Below are positions 13,662-25,821 of a stretch of 55,111 bases of DNA, piece by piece. The stretch covers positions 1-55,111 of the forward strand of contig CAMYLJ010000031.1 in NCBI GenBank assembly GCA_947259215.1. Reading direction: 5' to 3'. The notes beneath the pieces are model-generated. The model worked only from the letters and a program-made list of their open reading frames with translations. It searched no databases and had not been told where the DNA came from. Each line of letters begins with the position of its first letter. Within the stretch, counting starts at the first letter, position 1. The position numbers and the translations under genes are program-made. This DNA comes from an uncultured delta proteobacterium (lineage in GTDB: Bacteria; Myxococcota_A; UBA9160; JAFDET01).

Positions 13662-14500
13662 GGGCCGCCACTCTCGTTCTGCGCAGGATTGCGTGTAGGC
13701 TCGGGCGCATGAGAGCCAGCGTGCTCGTTCCGGTCGCGCTCGCCGGCAGCCTGACCGCAGCTGTTGGAGCCCCTGCCCTGGAGACCCTCGACGAAATCGA
13801 GGCGTGCGTACGGGCGAACCTGCCCGCGAAGGCGAGCGTGCAGACGGTGATCCTGCGGTCGGTGGACCGCACAGGCGAGGAGACCGATTCGACGGCGATC
13901 ATCCACTGGAAGAAGTCCGACGACGGCTACTCCCGGGTGCTGATGCGCATCACCGATCCGCCCCTGCGCCGCGGGTCGGCCCTGCTCGCGATCCAGTCGG
14001 AGGATCGCGTCGAGATGTTCATGTATCTGCCCGAGCTGCGGCGCGTGCGGCGGGTCAACAAGCACTCGCTGCAGGGCGCGGTCTTCGGGACGGACCTCAC
14101 CTACGAGGACTTCGAGCGCTTCGCGGGGCTGTTGGAGGAGGCCGAGACGAAGCGACTTCCCGACGAGACCCTCGACGGACGCCCCGTCTACGTGATCGAG
14201 GCCCGACCGGCTCTCGGCGCGGAGTCCGAATACGAACGGGTCGTCTCCTACGTGGATCACGCGAGGTGCATCCCCCTGCGTGTCGAGCTCTTCGAGCGCT
14301 CCAACCAGCTGCGCAAGACGGTCACCCTGCCCCTGGACCACATGACCGAGGAGCCCTCGGGCTGGGTCCCGCGCCTGGTGCGGGTTGCCGACCTGGTGGA
14401 CGAGACGCACACCCTTCTCATCGTCGACGAGATCGACACCGCGGCCGAAGTTCCCGACCGAATCTTCTCGGTCCGCCAGCTGGAGCGTGAAGGGCACTGA
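13658..14500 (+). CDS. LolA-like outer-membrane lipoprotein-sorting family protein, 280 aa
   Basis: A hydrophobic N-terminus (ASVLVPVALAGSLTAAVGAP) is probably a signal peptide. The ATG at 13658 overlaps the preceding stop; the ATG at 13709 gives a more compact signal peptide and is an alternative start. The body matches the LolA-like periplasmic carriers that accompany RND exporters: SALLAIQSEDRVEMFMYLPE, LRRVRRVNKHSLQGAVFGTD and LTYEDFERFAGL are family hallmarks. Such proteins bind lipids or lipoproteins in a half-barrel and shuttle them across the periplasm. The stop overlaps the RND start (TGATG), which indicates one functional unit with that exporter. Confidence 0.85.
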   Translation: MRAATLVLRRIACRLGRMRASVLVPVALAGSLTAAVGAPALETLDEIEACVRANLPAKASVQTVILRSVDRTGEETDSTAIIHWKKSDDGYSRVLMRITDPPLRRGSALLAIQSEDRVEMFMYLPELRRVRRVNKHSLQGAVFGTDLTYEDFERFAGLLEEAETKRLPDETLDGRPVYVIEARPALGAESEYERVVSYVDHARCIPLRVELFERSNQLRKTVTLPLDHMTEEPSGWVPRLVRVADLVDETHTLLIVDEIDTAAEVPDRIFSVRQLEREGH

Positions 14501-17229
14501 TGCTGGACCGCTTCGCGCGTCTCATCGCCGACCATCCGATCGCCACGCTGGTCGCCGTGCTGGGCGTTACGCTGCTCGCGTTCTCCGGAATCGTGGACTT
14601 CCGCAGCGGCGAGATCCGCCTGCGGCTCGACCCGGCGATCGACCGCCTCATGCCGCGCGACGAGGCGCTCCGTTACTACGACGACATGCGGCGCCGCTTC
14701 GGAAACGACGACACGCTCACGGTCGCGGTGGTGACCGAGGACGTGTTCTCTCCCGAGATCCTGCCACGCGTGAAGCGGATGACGGAGCGCTTCGAGCAGG
14801 TGGAGGGGATCCGCCGCGTGGTGAGCCTCTCGACTGCCCTCAACATCCGGGGCGACGATGGCGACCTCTCGATCGAGCCGTTCTATACCGGTCTCCCGGA
14901 GGATCCTGCGGAACTCGCGGCGATGCGGCGCGAGGCGCTGGAGAACCCGATCTACGCCGGCAACCTGGTGTCGCGCGACGGGCGGGCCACTGCCCTGGTG
15001 GTCCACCTGCGCAAGATGACCGAGGCGGAGTTCATCGACGCTCGCATCGACGTCCAGCTGGCCGCGATCGCCGAGGAGGAACGCGGGACCGCCGAGGTGT
15101 GGATGACCGGGCCGCCACAGCTCCGCGCCGAGTTGAGCCGGGTCCTGCTCTCCGATCTGAGCTTCGTGGTGCCGGCAGCCTTCACCATTTGCGCAATGGT
15201 GGCGGGGGTGGCCTTTCGCTCGGCGCGGGGCCTCGTCATCCCCGCCACCACGATCCTGCTGGCCCTGGTCTGGACCCTGGGCATGATGGCCTGGACGGGA
15301 CGCACGCTGAACCTGGTGACCACGATCCTGCCTCCCCTCATCCTGACGATCGGCCTGGCCTACAGCGTCCACGTCGTGGCCGCGTACTACGCGGTGCTGC
15401 GGAAGGGCGCTGCGGACGGACCGCGCGAGCTGGTCCGACAGGCCCTGCGCGGGGTCGGCCTCCCCGTACTGCTGACCGCGCTGACGACGTGCGTGGGCTT
15501 CCTCGCGCTCACGGTGAGCCGGCTTCCAGCCATCCGTGAGTTTGCGGTCTTCGCGACGGTCGGGGTCGCCATGACGGTCGTCGTCTCGCTGACCTACGTG
15601 CCCGCCCTGCTGCGCATCCTGCCGCCACCGCGGCGGGTTCCGTCCGAAAAGGGCGCGGCACGCTTGGACCGCGGCTTCGAGGCCGTAGCGCGCTTCGATC
15701 TGCGCCACCGCCCCGCCATCTTCGCGGTGGCGATCCTGGTCTGCGTCGTCTCGCTCTACGGCCTCTCCCGGGTCCGGGTGAGCAACGACATCATCACCAA
15801 CTTCCGCCCCGACTCTTCCGTGCGGGTTCACTTCGATGCGATCAACGAGAATCTGGAGGGATCGAACCCCCTGTACGTGGTCCTCGAGAGCGACGAGCGC
15901 GACACCTTCAAGCGACCCGCCAACCTGCGCGTGGTGGAGGATCTGCAGCGCTGGCTCGAGGAGCAGCCCGGCATCGGAAGCACCACCTCGCTCGTCGACT
16001 ACGTCAAGGTAATCAACTGGGGCTTCCACGAGAACGACCCGGACTACCGCGCCATCCCCGAGACGGCCGCGCTGACCGATCAGCTGCTCTTCTTCGGAGG
16101 GAACGAGGAGCTCGATGCGTTCGTCGACCCCCGCTACAAGACCACCCGCATCGTGGCGCGTGCGACCGTGATCGATTCGGTGGCGATGCGAGCCGTCGTG
16201 GAGCGCTTGCGCGAGCATCTCGCGACCCTTCCGGAGCACATCCACCCGCGGGTCACGGGCAACACGGTCCTCGCCAACCAGACCTTCGACGATCTCGCGC
16301 GTGGCCAGGGTCAGAGCCTGACGATCGCGTTCGTCGCGATCTACGGGATCCTCAGCCTGCTCTTCACGTCCTTCCGGGTGGGCTTCATCGCGCTGATCCC
16401 CAACGCGATTCCGGTGCTGGTCTATTTTGGCGCCATGGGCTTGACGGGCGTGGCGCTCAACCCCAATACGAGCCTGGTGGCGTGCCTCGTACTGGGAATC
16501 GCCGTGGACGACAGCATCCACTACATGACGCGCTTCGCTCGGTCTGCAAGGAAGCGGGCCGACGAGCGGCAGGGGACCATCGACGCCCTGCGCGGCGTGG
16601 GGCGGCCCATCACCGCGACGACCATCGCCCTGTGCCTGGGATTCCTGACGATGACGTTCACCAACCTGCGGATGGAAGTCGAGTTCGGAGCCCTCGCTGC
16701 CTTCACCATGTTCTCGGCGTGGCTGGTCGACATGACGCTCACTCCGGCCCTGTGCAGTGGCGTGCGCATCGTGACGCTGTGGGACGTGCTCACGCTGGAT
16801 CTGGGTCGGGAGCCCCAGACCGCGATCCCGATCTTCCGCGGGCTGACCCGCCGGCAGGCCCGGGTGGTGGCGCTCATGACTCACCTGCGCAGCGTGAAGA
16901 AGGAGAGCATTCTCTTCGAGCGGGGCGAACGGGGCCAGGAAATGTACGTGGTGATCGAGGGCGAGCTCGTAGCCTCGATCGAGCACCGGGGCGTTCGAGA
17001 GGAGCTGGGACGCCTGCGGCGGGGCGACGTGGTGGGAGAGGTGGCGCCCTTCTACGGCACGCGGACCGCCGACGTCGACGTGACGGAGGATGCGCTGCTG
17101 CTGCGGCTCACGCTCGCGGACCTCGAGCGGCTGCGGCGCCACTATCCGCGGATCGGCGCCATCGTCTACCGCAACATGAGCGACCTCCTCGCGAACAGGG
17201 TGGCCAACACCATGGAACACGTCCTCTAG
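14500..17229 (+). CDS. RND/MMPL-family exporter with C-terminal cyclic-nucleotide-binding domain, 909 aa
   Basis: An inner-membrane RND-superfamily transporter of the MMPL/COG1033 type. It has one N-terminal TM, a periplasmic domain, then a TM bundle (residues ~220-380), a second periplasmic domain, and another TM bundle (~610-750). GIAVDDSIHYMTRFARSA carries the paired Asp expected in proton-driven members. After the last TM, residues ~790-900 form a cNMP-binding-like fold, with ILFERGERGQEMYVVIEGEL then GDVVGEVAPFYGTRTADV. The Gly-Glu and Arg of the phosphate cassette are retained. This suggests transport gated by a nucleotide or related ligand. It is coupled to the LolA-like gene. The last 24 codons are duplicated at 23792. 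Confidence 0.9.
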   Translation: MLDRFARLIADHPIATLVAVLGVTLLAFSGIVDFRSGEIRLRLDPAIDRLMPRDEALRYYDDMRRRFGNDDTLTVAVVTEDVFSPEILPRVKRMTERFEQVEGIRRVVSLSTALNIRGDDGDLSIEPFYTGLPEDPAELAAMRREALENPIYAGNLVSRDGRATALVVHLRKMTEAEFIDARIDVQLAAIAEEERGTAEVWMTGPPQLRAELSRVLLSDLSFVVPAAFTICAMVAGVAFRSARGLVIPATTILLALVWTLGMMAWTGRTLNLVTTILPPLILTIGLAYSVHVVAAYYAVLRKGAADGPRELVRQALRGVGLPVLLTALTTCVGFLALTVSRLPAIREFAVFATVGVAMTVVVSLTYVPALLRILPPPRRVPSEKGAARLDRGFEAVARFDLRHRPAIFAVAILVCVVSLYGLSRVRVSNDIITNFRPDSSVRVHFDAINENLEGSNPLYVVLESDERDTFKRPANLRVVEDLQRWLEEQPGIGSTTSLVDYVKVINWGFHENDPDYRAIPETAALTDQLLFFGGNEELDAFVDPRYKTTRIVARATVIDSVAMRAVVERLREHLATLPEHIHPRVTGNTVLANQTFDDLARGQGQSLTIAFVAIYGILSLLFTSFRVGFIALIPNAIPVLVYFGAMGLTGVALNPNTSLVACLVLGIAVDDSIHYMTRFARSARKRADERQGTIDALRGVGRPITATTIALCLGFLTMTFTNLRMEVEFGALAAFTMFSAWLVDMTLTPALCSGVRIVTLWDVLTLDLGREPQTAIPIFRGLTRRQARVVALMTHLRSVKKESILFERGERGQEMYVVIEGELVASIEHRGVREELGRLRRGDVVGEVAPFYGTRTADVDVTEDALLLRLTLADLERLRRHYPRIGAIVYRNMSDLLANRVANTMEHVL

Positions 17230-17257: not shown

Positions 17258-18283
17258 TCATCGGGGCGCTTGCAGCGAAGCGCGCAGACGCCGCAGCCCC
17301 TCGTCGACGCGGATCTTGGGCTTCCAGTCCAGGTCGCGCCGCGCGGCCGAGATGTCGAACCAGTGCGACGTGGCGAGCTCACGCGCGAGGAAGCGGGTCA
17401 TCAGGGGCTCGCCGCGCAGGGGCAGCGCCCGGTAGAGGGCCTCCAGCACGAAGCCAGCCGCCAGCGCGAGTCGCGCCGGCACTGCGCGCGTGAGCGGCGG
17501 CAGGTCCGCGGCCGCGAGCAGGTGGTTCACCATCTCCCACAGGCGCACCGGCTTGCCGGCACTCAGGAAGTAGGCGCTTCCGGCAACGGGCGAGCCGGGG
17601 GAGAGCCGCTCCGCCGCGCGCAGGTGGGCCTCCGCTGCGTCGTCGACGTAGATCATGTCCACCTCGTTGCGCCCGTCGCCGACGATGGGCAGGCGGCCGG
17701 CGCGCGCGCGGGCTGTGATGCGGGGCACGAAGTGAGGGTCGCCGGGGCCCCAGATCAGGTGCGGTCGCAGCGAAACCGTCGCGAGGTCGGGACCGTTCGC
17801 GTCGAGCACGAGACGCTCGGCGATCGCCTTGCTCTCGGGATAGGCCGATTCGTAGTGGGAGGCATAGGGAACCGACTCGTCGACTCCGCACAGGTCGCGG
17901 CCGTCGAAGACCACGCTCGGCGTGCTGGTGTAGACCAGGCGCCCGACGCCCGCGGCCCGGCACCCCTCGAGCACGTGGCGAGTGCCCTCCACGTTGACCC
18001 GCCAGAACTCGCGACGGGGACCCCAGACGCCTGCCCGGGCGGCAACGTGGAAGACGACGCTCCGCCCCACGCACGCACGCCGTACGGCGGCCGCATCGCC
18101 CAGGTCGCCGCGCAGCGTCTCGACCCCGAGCGCCGTGAGCTCCGGGTAGTCGCCGCGGGCGAAGCTGGCGACCGGCACGCCGCGCTCCCGCAACCGCTCG
18201 ACGACGGCGCGGCCGAGGAAGCCGCCGCCGCCCGTCACCAGCGCCGGGGTGGAGGCGTCGAGCGGCGCGAGCGGGGCGCTCAA
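17258..18283 (-). CDS. oleD: OleD-type NAD(P)-dependent ketone reductase, 341 aa
   Basis: A short-chain/epimerase-superfamily reductase. In olefin biosynthesis OleD reduces the 2-alkyl-3-ketoacid made by OleA to the 2-alkyl-3-hydroxyacid. The cofactor motif TGGGGFLG follows a short N-terminus. The catalytic pair is YPESK (Tyr and Lys of YxxxK), with upstream Ser/Thr in VYTSTPSVVFDG; SLRPHLIWGPGD is the usual later signature. The start is a TTG at 18283 overlapping the oleC stop (TTGA), with GGAG six bases upstream. It is the third gene of the minus-strand oleB-oleC-oleD operon. Without context it could only be called a 3-beta-HSD-like reductase. Confidence 0.88.
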   Translation of the reverse strand: MSAPLAPLDASTPALVTGGGGFLGRAVVERLRERGVPVASFARGDYPELTALGVETLRGDLGDAAAVRRACVGRSVVFHVAARAGVWGPRREFWRVNVEGTRHVLEGCRAAGVGRLVYTSTPSVVFDGRDLCGVDESVPYASHYESAYPESKAIAERLVLDANGPDLATVSLRPHLIWGPGDPHFVPRITARARAGRLPIVGDGRNEVDMIYVDDAAEAHLRAAERLSPGSPVAGSAYFLSAGKPVRLWEMVNHLLAAADLPPLTRAVPARLALAAGFVLEALYRALPLRGEPLMTRFLARELATSHWFDISAARRDLDWKPKIRVDEGLRRLRASLQAPR

Positions 18284-19932
18284 CGTCGCTCCGACGCCCA
18301 GCGCGCCAGCTCGGATCGGTCGATCTTGGAGTTGTGGCGCCGATCCACCGGGAAGCCGGGATGGAAGAGCACGCGGCGGATCGCGCGCGTCGTCTCGTGA
18401 GCGGCACAGAGTGCCAGCACGTCGTCGGCGATCCGCTGCCGCTCCTCCGCCCCAAGTCGTTGCTCGAGCTCGAGGCAGAGCACCGGATCCTGGGCACCGG
18501 GTGCGCCCACCCCGACCAGCGCGCTGCGGAATACCTCGGGATGCTGGTTCGCGACGCCCTCGCAGGGCACCGGGAAGAGCGTGCCGTGCGCCGTCTCCAC
18601 CCGGTGCACCTTGCGTCCGCAGAACCACAGGCGCCCCTTCCCGTCGAGACGGCCCAGGTCGCCCATCCGGTGCAGGACGCAACCGTCGGGACCGCGAATC
18701 TTGGCCAACGCGTTGTCGCGCGGCCGGCGCCAATAGGCGGCGGTGACCATCGGTCCCGACACCACCAACTCGCCGACCGCGCCCTCCGGAGCCAGCAGCT
18801 CGTCGGACCAGACCTCCATGGGATCGTCCCGGATCTCCATCACGCGCACGCGCACCTGCCGCACGGGGCGCCCCACGCAGACTCCGCCGCCGCAGGCGGA
18901 TTCCACTCGCGTCTCCTCGAGGATCTCCCGGCTCTCGATCGAGGCCACCGGCAGCGCCTCGGTCGCCCCGTACGGGGTGTGGAACTCCGCGTCCGGCGGT
19001 AGCACGGCGCGCATGCGTTCGACGATGTCGGCCCGCACCGGCGCCCCGGCGGAGAGCACGCGCCGGATCGAGCCGAGGTGCAGCGCCCGCGCCTGGCAGT
19101 GCCGCGAGAGGCGGTCGATCAGCGCCGGCGAGCCGAACATGCGCGTCGCCCCGTGGTCCTCGATCGCCTCGACCAGGCGCGCCGGGTCGGCGCTGGCGGG
19201 CCGGCTCGCATCCATGTCGGGCACCACGGCGGTCACGCCGAGCGCGGCGTCGAAGAGCGCGAAGGGCGGGAAGGTCGCCAGATTGACGCCGTCCTCGTCG
19301 AGCTGAAAGAGCTCCTCGAGGAACTCGAGCTGGGCGGCGAAGATGCCGTGCGTATAGACCACGCCCTTGGGCACGCCGGTGCTGCCGCTGGTGAAGAAGA
19401 TCCCGGAGACGTCGTCCGCGTCCAGCGCCGCGATCGGGTAGGGGGGATCCGGGGCGTCGCGCAGCGCCTCCAGGCGATGGCCGCTCCAGCCCCGCCCCAC
19501 CGTCACCAGCGTGCGGAGCGAGCCGCGCCCCCAGCCCAGCAGCGCGCGCGCGGCGTGGGCACGCGGAACGCCGACGAAGGCCTCCGGCTCCGCCTCGCCC
19601 AGGCAGACCCCGAGGTTGCGGCGGCCGAGCCCGGGATCGACGAGCACCAGCGGGGCCCCGACCTTGAAGAGCGCGAAGGCCGCGGTGAAGAAGTCGAGGC
19701 CCGGGGGAACCATCAGCACGGTGCGCGTGCCGCGCACGATGCCGACCCGCTCGAAGCCGCGCGCCAGCCGGTCGCTCTCGCGGTCGAGCTGCGCGAAGCC
19801 CAGCTGGACGTAGCGCGCGCGCCCGGAGCGGTCGCGCCCCGCGGCGCACACCACCGCGGGCCGGAAGGGCCGGCGCCGGGCGGCTTCGCGCAGCCGCCGC
19901 GCCACGTTCCAGCCGCGCTCGGCCTCGCTCAT
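18280..19932 (-). CDS. oleC: OleC-type beta-lactone synthetase (AMP-binding), 550 aa
   Basis: A member of the ANL (acyl/aryl-CoA ligase) superfamily. OleC converts the 2-alkyl-3-hydroxyacid with ATP into a cis beta-lactone rather than a CoA ester. Visible ANL cores: phosphate loop FFTSGSTGVPKGVVYTH, YGATEALPVAS, the hinge region MGDLGRLDGKGRLWFCGRK, and a C-terminal NSKIDR with the adenylation Lys. The ATG at 19932 overlaps the oleB stop (ATGA) and has no ribosome site of its own, which suggests coupled translation. Neighbours oleB and oleD make OleC far more likely than a generic acyl-CoA ligase. Confidence 0.88.
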   Translation of the reverse strand: MSEAERGWNVARRLREAARRRPFRPAVVCAAGRDRSGRARYVQLGFAQLDRESDRLARGFERVGIVRGTRTVLMVPPGLDFFTAAFALFKVGAPLVLVDPGLGRRNLGVCLGEAEPEAFVGVPRAHAARALLGWGRGSLRTLVTVGRGWSGHRLEALRDAPDPPYPIAALDADDVSGIFFTSGSTGVPKGVVYTHGIFAAQLEFLEELFQLDEDGVNLATFPPFALFDAALGVTAVVPDMDASRPASADPARLVEAIEDHGATRMFGSPALIDRLSRHCQARALHLGSIRRVLSAGAPVRADIVERMRAVLPPDAEFHTPYGATEALPVASIESREILEETRVESACGGGVCVGRPVRQVRVRVMEIRDDPMEVWSDELLAPEGAVGELVVSGPMVTAAYWRRPRDNALAKIRGPDGCVLHRMGDLGRLDGKGRLWFCGRKVHRVETAHGTLFPVPCEGVANQHPEVFRSALVGVGAPGAQDPVLCLELEQRLGAEERQRIADDVLALCAAHETTRAIRRVLFHPGFPVDRRHNSKIDRSELARWASERR

Positions 19933-20837
19933 GGGAGGGGCACCGGGTGCGCGGCGAGGAACTCGCACACCCGGGGCACGATCTCGTCGCGGGCATCCTC
20001 CAGGACGTAGTGGCCGGCGCCCGGGTAGCGGTGCACCTCCGCCTTGGGAAGCTCAAGCTGCCACTGGCGCAGGAAGTGGTCGTCGAAGATGAAGTCGCGC
20101 GCCCCCCAGCAGATCAGGGCAGGTCGGTCGCGGAGGTTCGCGAGCCCGGCCTGCACCTCGAGCGCGGTCGGCCAGGAGGGATCGTCCGGCCCGAGCGGAA
20201 TGTCCTGAACGAAGCGCAGGGTCGCGATCCGGTTCTGCCAGGAATCGTAGGGCGCAAGGTACGCGCGACGCACCAGGGCGGGGAGACGGGACTTCGGGCC
20301 CACCCAGGCCGCGATCCGGGCGAAGGCGTTCAGGCCCTGCACGAGCCAGCCCATCACGCGCAGGTCGCGCACCATCCCGAGCTGCCAGGGCAGCTTCTTG
20401 CTGGCCGGCAGCGGGAACGCCGCGGTGTTGAGGATCACGAGGCGGGCCACCCGATCGGGGTGGCGCGCCGCCCAGCCGAACCCGATCGCCCCGCCCCAGT
20501 CGTGCGTCACCAGGGTCACGTCGCGCACGATCCCGAGCTCCTCGAGCAACGCCTCGAGGTCGTCGATCCGGCTCGCCAGGCGGTAGCTGTAGCGGTCGTC
20601 GCCTGGCTTGTCGGAGAGCCCGCATCCGATGTGGTCGGGGACCACCACCCGAAAGCGGTCGCGGAGCGCCGTCACCAGATCGCGGTAGTAGAACGACCAG
20701 GTGGGATTGCCGTGCACCATGACGACGGGCGGACCCTGCCCTTCGTCGAGGTAGTGCTGGCGGAGTCCGCCGCGCGTGACGTAGTGGCTCTCGAAGGGAT
20801 AGAGCGTCCGGAACGGTGAGAGGTCGAAGCTCACCAC
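19929..20837 (-). CDS. oleB: OleB-type beta-lactone decarboxylase (haloalkane-dehalogenase fold), 302 aa
   Basis: An alpha/beta hydrolase. OleB cleaves CO2 from the beta-lactone made by OleC to give the cis-olefin. The oxyanion region is MVHGNPTWSFYYRDL. The nucleophile is Asp in VTHDWGGAIG, with the halide-site-like Trp next to it, and the catalytic His is in YPGAGHYVLED. The haloalkane-dehalogenase-like start SFDLSPFRTLYPFESHYV supports a GTG start at 20837, where AGGAGG is immediately upstream; an ATG at about 20870 would add a poorly conserved extension. It is the first gene of oleBCD on the minus strand, reading away from oleA. Confidence 0.87.
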   Translation of the reverse strand: MVSFDLSPFRTLYPFESHYVTRGGLRQHYLDEGQGPPVVMVHGNPTWSFYYRDLVTALRDRFRVVVPDHIGCGLSDKPGDDRYSYRLASRIDDLEALLEELGIVRDVTLVTHDWGGAIGFGWAARHPDRVARLVILNTAAFPLPASKKLPWQLGMVRDLRVMGWLVQGLNAFARIAAWVGPKSRLPALVRRAYLAPYDSWQNRIATLRFVQDIPLGPDDPSWPTALEVQAGLANLRDRPALICWGARDFIFDDHFLRQWQLELPKAEVHRYPGAGHYVLEDARDEIVPRVCEFLAAHPVPLP

Positions 20838-20895
20838 GCCTCCTCTGGCAGGACCGCCGTCTCCTTCCATACCACACGGCGGCAGTGCGTCATCT

Positions 20896-20921
20896 CGCAT
20901 TCGCTGTCATGACGCAATGCG
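20896..20921. promoter_or_regulatory. Candidate operator in the oleB/oleA divergent intergenic region
   Basis: An 8-bp palindrome GTCATGAC (20906-20913) sits inside an outer inverted pair, CGCATT (20896-20901) and AATGCG (20916-20921). It lies near the middle-left of the ~216-bp gap between the divergent oleB and oleA starts, where a regulator could act on both. No clear -35/-10 pair is visible around it. Confidence 0.35.
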
Positions 20922-21053
20922 ACACCCGCAAACCTAGCAACGAGAATGAGGGGTCTGCACCCCGCAACATGGATTGCCTCGAGAAGGGCGCTTTACAGCC
21001 CGGAGCGGCTATGGGAAAATTGACGAGCGCGCGATTATGGAGCCCCCCAAACG

Positions 21054-22163
21054 ATGAGCGAAACTGCGGTGAATGACGCAGTCGAAGCCGGCGGCAAGCC
21101 CAGGGAGGCCGCCGGCAACTGGCGCAGCCGCATCGAGAGTGTCGGCGTCCGGCTTCCGGAGCAACGCCTCGCTACCGACGAGCTGATGGGGCGCTGCCGA
21201 CGCGCGGCCCGGGTCGACCTCGCGTCGCTCACCGGGATCCGAGAGCGGCGCGTCTGCCGCGAGGGGGAGGACTCCCTCTCGCTCGGCGTGGACGCCGCCT
21301 GGGATTGTCTGGCGCGCTCGCGCCACAGCCCGGCCGACCTCGATGTGCTGATCAGCTGCAGCATCAGCAAGTACGTGGACGGGCTGTCCTACCGCTTCGA
21401 GCCAGCGCTCAGCCTCTCGATCAAGGAGGCGCTCGGCGCCAGCCAATGCTTCAACTTCGACGTCACCAATGCCTGCGCGGGGATGCTGACGGGGATCAGC
21501 ATCCTCGACGCCATGCTGCGCGCGGGCCAGATCCGCTGTGGCATGGTGGTGAGCGGCGAGTACATCACGCACATCGCCGACAACGCGGTGCGCAGCGTGC
21601 GCAGCATCGCGAGCCGCCAGCTCGCCTCGCTGACCGTGGGCGACGCGGGCGCCGCCGTGATCGTGGACCGCGTCGAGGGCACCGACCAGGGGATCGCCGC
21701 CTGCGAGCTGGTCACCATCGCGGAGCACAGCGGGCTCTGCATCGGCAAGCCGTTCCGGAACGGGCCCGGGGGCGTCATGCACACGCGCGCCAAGAAGCTC
21801 CACCAGGAGGCGATCGCCCACGGCTCGCCCGTGATCCAGCGCGCGCTCGACCGCGCCGGCTGGGAGATCGAGGACGTCGACGTGCTGATCCCGCACCAGA
21901 CCTCGGTGCGCGCACTCCGCGCCGGCCAGAAGCACTTCACGGCGACCCTCGGGGGGTGGGCGCGCGAGATGGTGAACAACCTCGACTCCTTCGGGAACAC
22001 CGCCTCCACCACGCACTTCGTCGCGCTGCACCGCTATCTGCGCGAGGGCCGCCTGCGTCCAGAAAGCCGGGTGATGTTGCTCGGCTTCGCCTCGGGAATC
22101 GTGATCGGCGGGCTCGTGTTCCACGTGGGAGAGCTGGGAGGCGACCATGTCCGCGCTGGTTGA
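21054..22163 (+). CDS. oleA: OleA-like KASIII/thiolase-fold condensing enzyme, 369 aa
   Basis: A thiolase-superfamily (FabH/KASIII-like) enzyme. OleA joins two fatty acyl-CoAs head-to-head in a non-decarboxylative Claisen condensation to give a 2-alkyl-3-ketoacid. The catalytic triad is intact: Cys141 in FDVTNACAGM, His281 in LIPHQTS and Asn315 in DSFGNTAST. The late Gly-rich strand LLGFASGIVIGGLVFHV is typical. The OleA call rests on adjacency to oleBCD; by sequence alone it is a KASIII-family protein. The ATG at 21054 has only a distant GGAG. Its 3' end overlaps the next gene by 17 bp, so the two products are made together. Confidence 0.8.
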   Translation: MSETAVNDAVEAGGKPREAAGNWRSRIESVGVRLPEQRLATDELMGRCRRAARVDLASLTGIRERRVCREGEDSLSLGVDAAWDCLARSRHSPADLDVLISCSISKYVDGLSYRFEPALSLSIKEALGASQCFNFDVTNACAGMLTGISILDAMLRAGQIRCGMVVSGEYITHIADNAVRSVRSIASRQLASLTVGDAGAAVIVDRVEGTDQGIAACELVTIAEHSGLCIGKPFRNGPGGVMHTRAKKLHQEAIAHGSPVIQRALDRAGWEIEDVDVLIPHQTSVRALRAGQKHFTATLGGWAREMVNNLDSFGNTASTTHFVALHRYLREGRLRPESRVMLLGFASGIVIGGLVFHVGELGGDHVRAG

Positions 22164-23040
22164 AGCCATCCGCCGCGCCGCGCCACCGCCGCGCTGGCGG
22201 CAGCGCTCGTCGGTCAGGCTCGCCGCCGACGCCGGGCGCCGCGCGCTCGCCTCGGCGGGCGACCCCGATCGCATCGATCTCGTGGTGAACGTAGGGGTGT
22301 ACCGCGACCAGAACATTCTCGAGCCCGCCATGGCTCCGCTGATCCAGAGCCGTCTCGGCCCGCTCGGCCTCCGCAAGGACGTCTTCTCCTTCGACCTGGC
22401 CAATGGCGCCTGCGGACTCCTCGACGCCTTCCGCGTCGTCGACAGCCTGATGCGCGCGGGCTCGGTGCGCCGCGCGCTGGTGCTGGCCTCCGACGTCGAT
22501 CCCAATCCGGGCCGCTCGCAGGGCCTCGCGGTCGGCGCCGCCGGGGTCGGCGTGGTGCTGGCGGCGGGAGACGGGCGCGAGGGCTTCCGCGCCTTCCACG
22601 CCGAGACCTTCTCGAAGCACGCCCACCTCTACGAGAGCCGGGTGGAGTGGCTGGGCCCCGCGCGCTCGCGCTGGCTCGGCCGCAGCCCCGGTCACGCGAT
22701 CCGCCGGCGCGCCGTCGACGCCTACGCCGAGCGCTGCGCCGAGAGCGCCGCGCTGGCGGCCGCGCGTTTCCTCGAGGCTCGAGGTCTGGCGCCCGAGGAC
22801 CTCGACGTCGTCGTTGCGCCGGAGCTCCCGCCGGGCCTTCCGCAGCGCCTGGCCGAGCTTCTCGGGATCTCGGAGAAGCAGCTGGCGAGCGATCCGGACT
22901 CGGCAGGCACCTGCTCGGCGGCCCCCGGACTCGCCCTCGAGGCCGCCTTCGCGAGCGGTCGCATGGCGGCCGCCCGCCGCGCGCTGCTGGTGGCCGCGGG
23001 CGCCGGTATCACGGTGTCGCTCGCCCTCTACGAGCGCTGA
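22147..23040 (+). CDS. Second, catalytically degenerate KASIII-like protein, 297 aa
   Basis: The thiolase fold is recognisable: VFSFDLANGACGLLDAFRVV in the nucleophile position and RRALLVAAGAGITVSLALYE as the last strand. Aligned without gaps to the OleA-like protein, the Cys is shifted by one residue (Cys89 falls on the next position), the His position is Pro225, and the Asn position is Thr255. It is also about 70 residues shorter, mainly at the N-terminus. A strong GGGAGG precedes the ATG, which lies inside the oleA 3' end. By analogy with heteromeric KASIII pairs such as PqsB/PqsC, it may be a non-catalytic or specificity partner of OleA. That role is inference. Confidence 0.72.
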   Translation: MSALVEAIRRAAPPPRWRQRSSVRLAADAGRRALASAGDPDRIDLVVNVGVYRDQNILEPAMAPLIQSRLGPLGLRKDVFSFDLANGACGLLDAFRVVDSLMRAGSVRRALVLASDVDPNPGRSQGLAVGAAGVGVVLAAGDGREGFRAFHAETFSKHAHLYESRVEWLGPARSRWLGRSPGHAIRRRAVDAYAERCAESAALAAARFLEARGLAPEDLDVVVAPELPPGLPQRLAELLGISEKQLASDPDSAGTCSAAPGLALEAAFASGRMAAARRALLVAAGAGITVSLALYER

Positions 23041-23051
23041 GCCCGCACGCG

Positions 23052-23783
23052 GTGGAGCGGGAGATCGCCGCCGGAGTGGGCGACGCGTGGGAGGAAGCGC
23101 TCCGCGCCTGGGACGGTCGGCTCGACCGGGCGGAGGCCCGCAAGGCCGCCAGGCAATTCGAGGCGCTGGCGAAGCGCGAGCTCGAGAATCCGGACGCCTG
23201 GGCATGGTGCGCGCGGTCCTCCTACTTCCTGGGCGACTACGAGCCGGACAACGCGCGGCGGCGCGACCACTTCGAGCGCGGCATGAAGCTCGGGCAGCGC
23301 GGCATCGCGCTCGAGGGCCGGCATCCCGCCTCCCTCTTCTGGACCTCCGTGTGCGAGGCGAGCTACGTCGAATGGATCGGGATGCTGCGCCGGGCCACCT
23401 ACGTGCCCGAGATCCTCGGCTACATGAAGCGGCTCTGGGACGACGAACCGACCTACTACTACCGCGGCGCCGCGCGGCTGCTCGGCCAGGCGCTGGTGCG
23501 CCAGCCGGGACTCATTCGGCGCTTCCTGCCTGTCGTGCTGCCCGGGATCGGTCCGGACACCGCGATCCGCGAGCTGCGCGAGACGATCGCCGAGGCCCCC
23601 CCCATCGTGCTCGCCCACCAGACGCTGGCGCAGCTGCTACACGCCGTCGAGGGCGACCGCGCTGCCGTGCACGAGCAGATCGAGGCCATCGAGGCCCTCG
23701 ACCCCGACGCGAACCCGCTCTTCGCCCCCGAGAATCACCTCGACCGCCCGCGCGCCCTGGAGCTGCTCCGAAAGCTCCGCTGA
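23052..23783 (+). CDS. Helical TPR-like protein, 243 aa (TRAP-associated TAtT-like)
   Basis: The frame continues the oleA operon 11 bp after the degenerate KASIII gene, from a GTG at 23052 without a clear ribosome site. The sequence is alpha-solenoid: RKAARQFEALAKRELENPDA, HFERGMKLGQRGIALEGRHP, SLFWTSVCEASYVEWIG, GAARLLGQALVRQPG. The pattern resembles the TPR-like component associated with TRAP transporters (TAtT), although no TRAP genes are nearby. There is no signal peptide. A role as scaffold for the Ole enzymes, known to form large assemblies in other bacteria, is speculative. Confidence 0.6.
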   Translation: MEREIAAGVGDAWEEALRAWDGRLDRAEARKAARQFEALAKRELENPDAWAWCARSSYFLGDYEPDNARRRDHFERGMKLGQRGIALEGRHPASLFWTSVCEASYVEWIGMLRRATYVPEILGYMKRLWDDEPTYYYRGAARLLGQALVRQPGLIRRFLPVVLPGIGPDTAIRELRETIAEAPPIVLAHQTLAQLLHAVEGDRAAVHEQIEAIEALDPDANPLFAPENHLDRPRALELLRKLR

Positions 23784-23791
23784 GCGGGGGT

Positions 23792-23863
23792 ACCATCGTC
23801 TACCGCAACCTGAGCGACCTCCTCGCGGGCCGGGTGGCCAACACCATGGAGCACGTCGGCTAG
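23792..23863 (+). repeat. Partial duplicate of the RND gene 3' end
   Basis: Starting eight bases after the TPR stop, the sequence encodes TIVYRNLSDLLAGRVANTME and ends HVG-stop. The RND exporter ends AIVYRNMSDLLANRVANTME then HVL-stop at 17158-17229. The two DNA stretches match over about 72 bp with few differences, in the same orientation, and lie at the two sides of the ole block. No start codon belongs to this frame. It is the 3' stub of an RND-cNMP gene or of a close paralogue. Confidence 0.85.
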
Positions 23864-25821
23864 CCGAGGACGACTCCCTCCCGGCGCTCGGCCAGGAGAC
23901 GCTTGATCTCCGGGAGCGCCTTCTCCGCCGCCTCGGCGCCGCGCTCGATCAGACCCTGGGTCTTGTAGAACTCGATCCAGGTGAACTCGGAGAGGTCCGG
24001 TGTGATGCGCACGTCGGCCGAGATGGCCTTGAACTGGCCCAGCTCGTGCTGGAGGATCTGGATGGTATTCATGAAGGTGTCCAGCGTGTTGGGCAGGCGG
24101 CGGTTGTCACCGAGGTAGGAGAGCGGGTTCAGCGCGTTCACCCGATGCCACAGCCGGGTGATGGCGTTGCTGACGCCCTTCCGGGGAGAAGGCACCGCGT
24201 TCACCGCGATGCAGAGGTCCGCACCCATCTCACGCACCACCTCGGCCGGCACGGGGTCCACCATGCTGCCATCGACGAGGACCCGGTCCCCCCGACGCAC
24301 GGGCACCCACAGCACCGGGACGGAGCAGCTCGTCCGGAAGGCCCGATCGACCCGCCCTTCGCCGATGGACACACGCTGGCCCGTCTCGATGTCGGTCGCG
24401 ACGACCCGGCAGGGAAGGCGCAGCTGCTCGAAGCGCTTCACCGGGCCCAGCAGCGGCGAGAAGATCGCGGTCAGGCGGTCTCCCGCCAGGATTCCCGGTC
24501 CGGTCAGCGTGAAGTCGAGAGCCGAGAGGGTGGTGAGCTTCGTGCCGATGCGTGCGGCGATCTCGAGCATCTCCTCGGGCGAGATCCCCGCCGCGTAGCC
24601 GAGGGCCACGATCGAACCCATGCTCGCGCCAGCGAGGAGATCCACCGGGATGTCGTTGTCCTCGAGGACGTTCAGCACGCCCACATGGGCGATGCCGAAG
24701 GCGGCTCCGCCGCCCACGGCGACGCCGACGCTCATCCCCAGGATCTTGCGCGCCAGCCGGCGCAGCGGCGGGGAGGCTGGCGCGCGGGGGTTGGCGCGCA
24801 GGTAGGCCACCCGACCCGGCCCCGGTCCCGGCGGCAACGCGGGGTCCTCGGGAATGACGAAGGGCTCGCAGTGGTTGACCGCAACGGGCAGGGAGGTCCG
24901 GTTGAAGAGGTTGATGACCTGAAAGACGCGCGGGGAGTCTCCAGCGCTCGGGTTCTCCCCGGGCTCCGCATGGTCGACGATCTCGACCGAGAGGTCCGCG
25001 ACCTCGCGCTTGCAGCCCGCCAGGAAGGCGGGCCGGCTGGCGAGGTCGACCACGACGTAGGGAAAGGCCTCAGCCAGTTTCGCCACGATGGCCTCGAAGC
25101 CCCGCACGAAGCCCTCCGGGCCCTCGCTGCCCACTGCGACGTCCAGCGCCGCAGCGTGCCCTGCCCGGACCTGGATCTCGCTCTTGATCCGGTCGAGGGG
25201 TACCTGCTCGGCGTCCGACAGCTCCAGCGGAGGCCGGCCGCGCTGCGCCGCCTCCGACAGGGGCAGGGTTCGCACCCGCAGCACTTCGACCTGGGCGTAT
25301 TCGCGCAGCAGTTCGGCCAGCGCGTCAGCCACCAGAGACTTCCCCTTGAGATCTGCAAGGGCCGAGACGGTCACCACGGTGGTCGGGCGGCGCGTCACCT
25401 CGCCCCGGTCGGTGGCCGCCAGTCGCCGGGTCAGCAGGGTCGAGAAGTAGTGGAGGACCTTCGCATTGTTGGCGAAGAAGCGGTTGAAGGACTCGCGGTC
25501 CAGCTCCAGGAGCTTCACGGCGCGAGCCGCCTTGACCGTGGCGCTGCGCCTGCCCTCGGAGAGCAGCGCCATCTCGCCCAGGACTTCACCGGCCCCGAGG
25601 CGGCTGAGGAGCCGCGGGTTCTCGGTTCCGGCCCACACTTCGAGCTCTCCACTCACGACGACGCAGAACGTGTCCCCCGCGTCCCCCTCGCGGAAGATCG
25701 TCCTGCCCTTGCGGTAGCTCTTCTCGGAGAACAGCGTGGCGACCGTGCGCAGCTCGTCGCGTGTGAAGCTGCTGAATAGCGGGGTGTGAGCGAGAAGCTC
25801 GACCTTCGTTTCCAGATCCAC
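23860..25821 (-). CDS. Patatin-like phospholipase with N-terminal cNMP-binding domain, 653 aa
   Basis: Related to neuropathy-target-esterase/RssA-type lipid hydrolases. Residues ~10-125 are a cNMP-binding fold, with YRKGRTIFREGDAGDTFCVV and a complete phosphate cassette VLGEMALLSEGRRSATV. A middle region (~140-300) resembles a nucleotide-binding Rossmann domain but lacks an obvious P-loop. Residues ~365-560 are the patatin domain: oxyanion GGGAAFGIAHVG, nucleophile GASMGS and catalytic Asp in LVDGSMVDPVP. No signal peptide is seen, so it probably acts on the inner leaflet. It starts at a GTG 5 bp after the acyltransferase stop, so they are co-transcribed. Its stop codon shares a CTAG with the RND stub on the other strand. 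Confidence 0.92.
   Translation of the reverse strand: MDLETKVELLAHTPLFSSFTRDELRTVATLFSEKSYRKGRTIFREGDAGDTFCVVVSGELEVWAGTENPRLLSRLGAGEVLGEMALLSEGRRSATVKAARAVKLLELDRESFNRFFANNAKVLHYFSTLLTRRLAATDRGEVTRRPTTVVTVSALADLKGKSLVADALAELLREYAQVEVLRVRTLPLSEAAQRGRPPLELSDAEQVPLDRIKSEIQVRAGHAAALDVAVGSEGPEGFVRGFEAIVAKLAEAFPYVVVDLASRPAFLAGCKREVADLSVEIVDHAEPGENPSAGDSPRVFQVINLFNRTSLPVAVNHCEPFVIPEDPALPPGPGPGRVAYLRANPRAPASPPLRRLARKILGMSVGVAVGGGAAFGIAHVGVLNVLEDNDIPVDLLAGASMGSIVALGYAAGISPEEMLEIAARIGTKLTTLSALDFTLTGPGILAGDRLTAIFSPLLGPVKRFEQLRLPCRVVATDIETGQRVSIGEGRVDRAFRTSCSVPVLWVPVRRGDRVLVDGSMVDPVPAEVVREMGADLCIAVNAVPSPRKGVSNAITRLWHRVNALNPLSYLGDNRRLPNTLDTFMNTIQILQHELGQFKAISADVRITPDLSEFTWIEFYKTQGLIERGAEAAEKALPEIKRLLAERREGVVLG

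Follow-up and report, generated by a model that had tools for sequence, protein, structure and literature searches.

Layout of the ole locus

The window, by which we mean the whole 55,111-nucleotide stretch of DNA that was analysed, contains an ole locus in which two co-directional genes, here called A and B, lie beside oleB, oleC and oleD. The latter three are transcribed divergently from the pair and do not form one operon with it. The features of the locus are as follows.

17258..18280, minus strand: oleD, 2-alkyl-3-oxoalkanoate reductase (NF042422, E 2e-128)
18280..19968, minus strand: oleC, olefin beta-lactone synthetase (NF045786, E 6e-197)
19929..20900, minus strand: oleB, beta-lactone decarboxylase (haloalkane dehalogenase-like)
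20901..21053, no strand: gap of 153 bp from which oleB and A diverge
21054..22163, plus strand: A, LstA-type KASIII condensing enzyme of 369 aa, with Cys141, His281, Asn315 and Glu116
22147..23040, plus strand: B, LstB-type thiolase-fold partner of 297 aa, without catalytic Cys, His or Asn and with Glu59-Pro60
22147..22163, plus strand: overlap of A and B, 17 bp, with a Shine-Dalgarno-like GGAGG before the ATG of B
22321..22323, plus strand: codon of B Glu59, by analogy the proposed base for the active site of A

The open reading frame coordinates confirm the 17-bp overlap between a KASIII gene and a second thiolase-fold gene that a preliminary description of this DNA had reported, and the reading frames together with family-model matches bear out its placement of recognisable oleBCD genes on the minus strand, opposite A. 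The intergenic region is lower in GC (0.59 versus 0.69) and holds one sigma-70-like match on the plus strand, which is a consensus match only. Codon-position GC in A and B resembles that of the neighbouring genes, and thus gives no sign of an assembly join or of very recent import. A possible third gene (window 23052-23783, plus strand, 243 aa) begins 11 bp after B and has no Pfam match. The ole locus is flanked on one side by a gene for an MMPL/RND transporter with a C-terminal cyclic-nucleotide-binding domain (window 14500-17226, plus strand) and on the other by a gene for a patatin-like phospholipase with an N-terminal cyclic-nucleotide-binding domain (window 23860-25821, minus strand).

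The oleB, oleC and oleD genes are intact and stand in the usual order of oleBCD olefin loci. At every position with at least 90% conservation among canonical OleB proteins, the window's OleB has the conserved residue, except for Ile271 in place of Val; it also carries terminal extensions. With OleB intact, an olefin is the expected end product. OleC and OleD fall short of the NCBIfam equivalog cut-offs, a shortfall shared by every other OleD of the window's phylum. Clusters of the lipstatin type lack oleB and yield a beta-lactone that undergoes NRPS tailoring, and the absence of oleB together with NRPS or formyltransferase tailoring marks lipstatin and nocardiolactone clusters generally. The window differs in that oleB is present and intact, and no NRPS was found among its annotated neighbours.

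Fold and catalytic residues of A and B

In sequence searches A matched KASIII proteins and structures over its full length, and B matched more weakly. AlphaFold2 models of the single chains predict a thiolase fold for both (pTM 0.88 each). To compare catalytic positions, 22 A proteins, 22 B proteins and 15 canonical OleA proteins were aligned. The A proteins carry Cys, Asn and Glu in 22 of 22 cases and His in all 21 that can be read at that column, and the window's A has in one chain all four elements of the canonical OleA set, the Glu117-Pro motif plus Cys-His-Asn. The B proteins retain the Glu in 22 of 22 cases, and at the catalytic columns none of the 22 has Cys, none His and none Asn. The window pair thus displays the LstAB-type division of residues, A bearing Cys-His-Asn and B lacking them but keeping the Glu. 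Because every one of the 22 B proteins has lost Cys, His and Asn, the degeneration of B goes beyond chance.

The preliminary description, working from an ungapped alignment, had read the second protein as catalytically degenerate, and in substance this holds: the window's B has Pro in the His column, and its Cys sits one residue away from the catalytic column (NGACG versus NACAG). Its Asn is likewise lost, but the aligned residue is Gly, the reported Thr appearing only if the sequences are left ungapped. No intact Cys-His-Asn set exists elsewhere in B in the 22-protein alignment; such a set was considered and rejected, given that the family does not conserve even the shifted Cys, which 7 of the 22 lack. 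The most reduced B seen (locus L053 of genome G160, 1696-2595) has lost the entire segment surrounding the Cys position and still has the Glu-Pro motif and the 17-bp overlap.

Glu59 and Pro60 are among ten columns that are invariant in B, and the motif they form, which the preliminary description had overlooked, matches that of OleA Glu117. Judged by this residue signature, B looks like a subunit retained for one residue and for dimerisation. The model of B has its lowest confidence at approximately residues 51-80, the stretch that contains Glu59; an unsettled Glu59 loop in a lone B chain would be expected if the Glu acts in the partner's site, an observation that is only suggestive.

The preliminary description took PqsBC of Pseudomonas aeruginosa, a KASIII heterodimer with one degenerate subunit, as a design model. 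PqsBC differs from the window pair in chemistry and in family, PqsC matches A weakly, and LstA/LstB, which that description missed, is the closer model. LstA/LstB of Streptomyces toxytricini, which act in lipstatin synthesis (doi 10.1021/jacs.8b12843, reviewed in PMC12141560), are an established heterodimer (PMC12141560, PMC7064751), and the premise that OleA-type condensation is the work of homodimers only is therefore outdated. The two proteins are encoded by adjacent KASIII genes, are 23% identical, and are soluble only if co-expressed, LstA alone being insoluble; LstA Cys128, LstA His271 and LstB Glu60 are required for activity, which the E60A substitution in LstB abolishes (PMC12141560). 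Counterparts of LstB are described as widely distributed and as clustering with LstA in every case (PMC12141560). In OleA, Glu117 of one subunit acts in the site of the neighbouring subunit (PMC7064751). The window pair resembles LstA/LstB in its adjacent KASIII genes, in the Cys-His-Asn of the first protein and in the Glu that is essential in LstB, and the head-to-head condensation of acyl-CoAs by LstA/LstB is the reaction type predicted for it. We infer that Glu59 of the window's B is equivalent to LstB Glu60.

Distribution of A/B pairs and the canonical OleA

A scan of contigs with single sequences gave one relative only, and whole-genome searches were then applied. With A-type matches accepted at E up to 1e-30, A was found in 7 of 379 genomes of the window's phylum, and the same seven have strong B matches; A without B was found in none of the 379. 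Further pairs were found in 9 of 396 genomes from the phylum that includes Nocardia, as well as on plasmids of Rhodococcus and Streptomyces. The two genes are adjacent in all 22 pairs examined. Four further matches to the B profile (78-88 bits) are lone KASIII genes; the weaker KASIII matches, in genomes G141, G356, G183 and G087, were set aside as other KASIII proteins without a partner.

These counts bear on the possibility that A by itself acts as a homodimeric OleA, with B regulating or stabilising it in a dispensable role. A does have a full set of residues, with Glu116 plus Cys, His and Asn in 22 of 22 A proteins (one His unread), but its absence without B from 379 genomes, the invariance of the B Glu although the rest of the B site is lost, and the insolubility of LstA alone and need for LstB Glu60 (PMC12141560) make this explanation improbable. 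The proposal of an obligate heteromeric pair, made in the preliminary description, is well supported: A and B co-occur, their genes keep the same overlap, and the catalytic residues that B has lost are those that A retains.

A, B and canonical OleA fall into three groups (SH-aLRT 84, 100 and 99, in a quick tree with long branches), and the window pair joins those of lipstatin-like clusters and stands away from canonical OleA. The A tree and the B tree divide into the same two clades. Clade 1 consists of seven pairs that adjoin OleC- and/or OleD-like genes and includes Rhodococcus and Streptomyces clusters with NRPS and formyltransferase genes, that is, lipstatin-like clusters. Clade 2, its sister, consists of 15 pairs, including that of the window, from two phyla. 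Where the start is clear, which leaves out L109, A and B in clade 1 are spaced by 0 to +3 bp, whereas the exact 17-bp overlap is found in 15 of 15 clade 2 pairs, three of them annotated independently by NCBI. That the overlap is constant in two phyla suggests that the genes are translationally coupled and inherited together, though common descent alone could have kept it. Nocardia thailandica has two different clade 1 pairs (L007, L102), both adjoining OleC/OleD-like genes. Its L007 cluster represents the Nocardia beta-lactone clusters of nocardiolactone type, which are like the window in setting an A/B pair beside OleC- and OleD-like genes and unlike it in having no oleB and in belonging to the sister clade. 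The nocardiolactone-type pair is named NltA/NltB.

B diverges faster than A and has lost its catalytic residues, as a decaying duplicate without function might. Yet its clade is conserved in two phyla, and it keeps an open frame, invariant positions, a confidently predicted fold and the fixed overlap; on the strength of this conservation we rejected B as a pseudogene and regard decay as extremely improbable.

For comparison with the ole locus of the window, 49 other loci with oleB, oleC and oleD were collected from its phylum. One full canonical OleA gene, on the strand of oleB, is present at 48 of the 49, and the last has a canonical OleA fragment at a contig end; none of the 49 has a partner gene or a second OleA. 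The window alone has an A/B pair in place of canonical OleA. Canonical OleA, exemplified by that of Xanthomonas campestris oleABCD, is homodimeric, the product of one gene, and encoded on the oleB strand. The window's A shares with it the expected reaction, the Glu-Pro motif and the place beside oleBCD, but falls outside the canonical clade into a separate tree group, lies on the opposite strand to oleB, and by inference needs B. Searched with a canonical OleA, the window's genome returned only A, one FabH, B and a single short segment of weak similarity. Its completeness is about 96%, which leaves room for an unlinked OleA outside the assembly.

The partner is, formally, absent from related ole loci, all 49 of which have a single OleA, an absence that the preliminary description had held against a heteromer. 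The idea nevertheless survives, because the gene called oleA in that description is an LstA-type partner of B and not a canonical OleA, and because LstA-type A was not found without B in the genomes searched.

A heterodimeric pair might also work independently of OleBCD, making, for instance, long-chain ketones or another lipid, as such pairs presumably do in relatives that have no ole genes nearby, with its adjacency to oleBCD accidental and the true OleA lost or unassembled. A clade 2 pair is linked to oleBCD at one locus only, that of the window: no oleBCD was found in the readable 1-9 kb flank of the other 14 members. Some of these relatives, the Rhodococcus pairs among them, adjoin wax ester/TAG synthase, universal stress protein and PEP synthase genes; genomes G089 and G093 each combine a clade 2 pair with a canonical oleABCD located elsewhere; and the pair in the window is divergent from oleBCD. 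Against independence, OleB, OleC and OleD are intact and would depend on an OleA-type enzyme for their substrate, the 96% complete genome yielded no second candidate for that role, and A/B directly adjoins oleB. On balance we consider independent action rather unlikely.

Several observations concern the clade 2 relatives themselves. An OleB-like hydrolase near the G089 pair (118 bits, L111) was too weak a match to be accepted as OleB. Clade 2 pairs of the window's phylum adjoin varied genes, on contigs that are in some cases short. In Rhodococcus and other Actinomycetota, the pairs L182, L184, L186 and L103-L107 lie in a stress or storage-lipid setting, with neighbours that include trehalose-phosphatase genes besides those for wax ester/TAG synthase, universal stress protein and PEP synthase-like proteins. 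We know of no product for the Rhodococcus clade 2 pairs beside such genes.

A proposed heterodimeric first step

The OleA proteins studied in PMC7064751 come from three genome contexts, oleABCD, oleBC fusions and oleACD without oleB. None of these matches the arrangement in the window, where a pair adjoins oleB, oleC and oleD. The window pair likely belongs to the LstAB kind, in a setting absent from the literature surveyed.

We consider it probable that a heterodimer of the LstAB type, which is so far known from lipstatin synthesis, stands in for OleA in an OleB-containing, olefin-forming locus. The A/B pair would substitute for a canonical OleA that has been lost. A would bear the acyl-enzyme on Cys141, assisted by His281 and Asn315. 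B, its own active site lost, would be retained as the dimer partner, with Glu59 serving as general base across the interface, the part played by OleA Glu117 and presumably by LstB Glu60. The beta-keto acid formed by A/B would then pass to OleD, OleC and OleB to yield a long-chain internal olefin. An asymmetric enzyme of this kind could join two different acyl chains. A broader proposal, that a second, uncharacterised LstAB-like clade with the 17-bp overlap, spread over two phyla, has replaced OleA here and given rise to an assembly line for mixed-chain hydrocarbons, is put forward tentatively, as a possibility that may or may not hold.

The first enzyme determines the structure of every Ole product. 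If the proposed substitution is correct, the condensing module would be exchangeable between beta-lactone and olefin pathways, mixed-chain hydrocarbons could result, and the pair would add to LstAB another natural system in which to ask which acyl chain each subunit selects.
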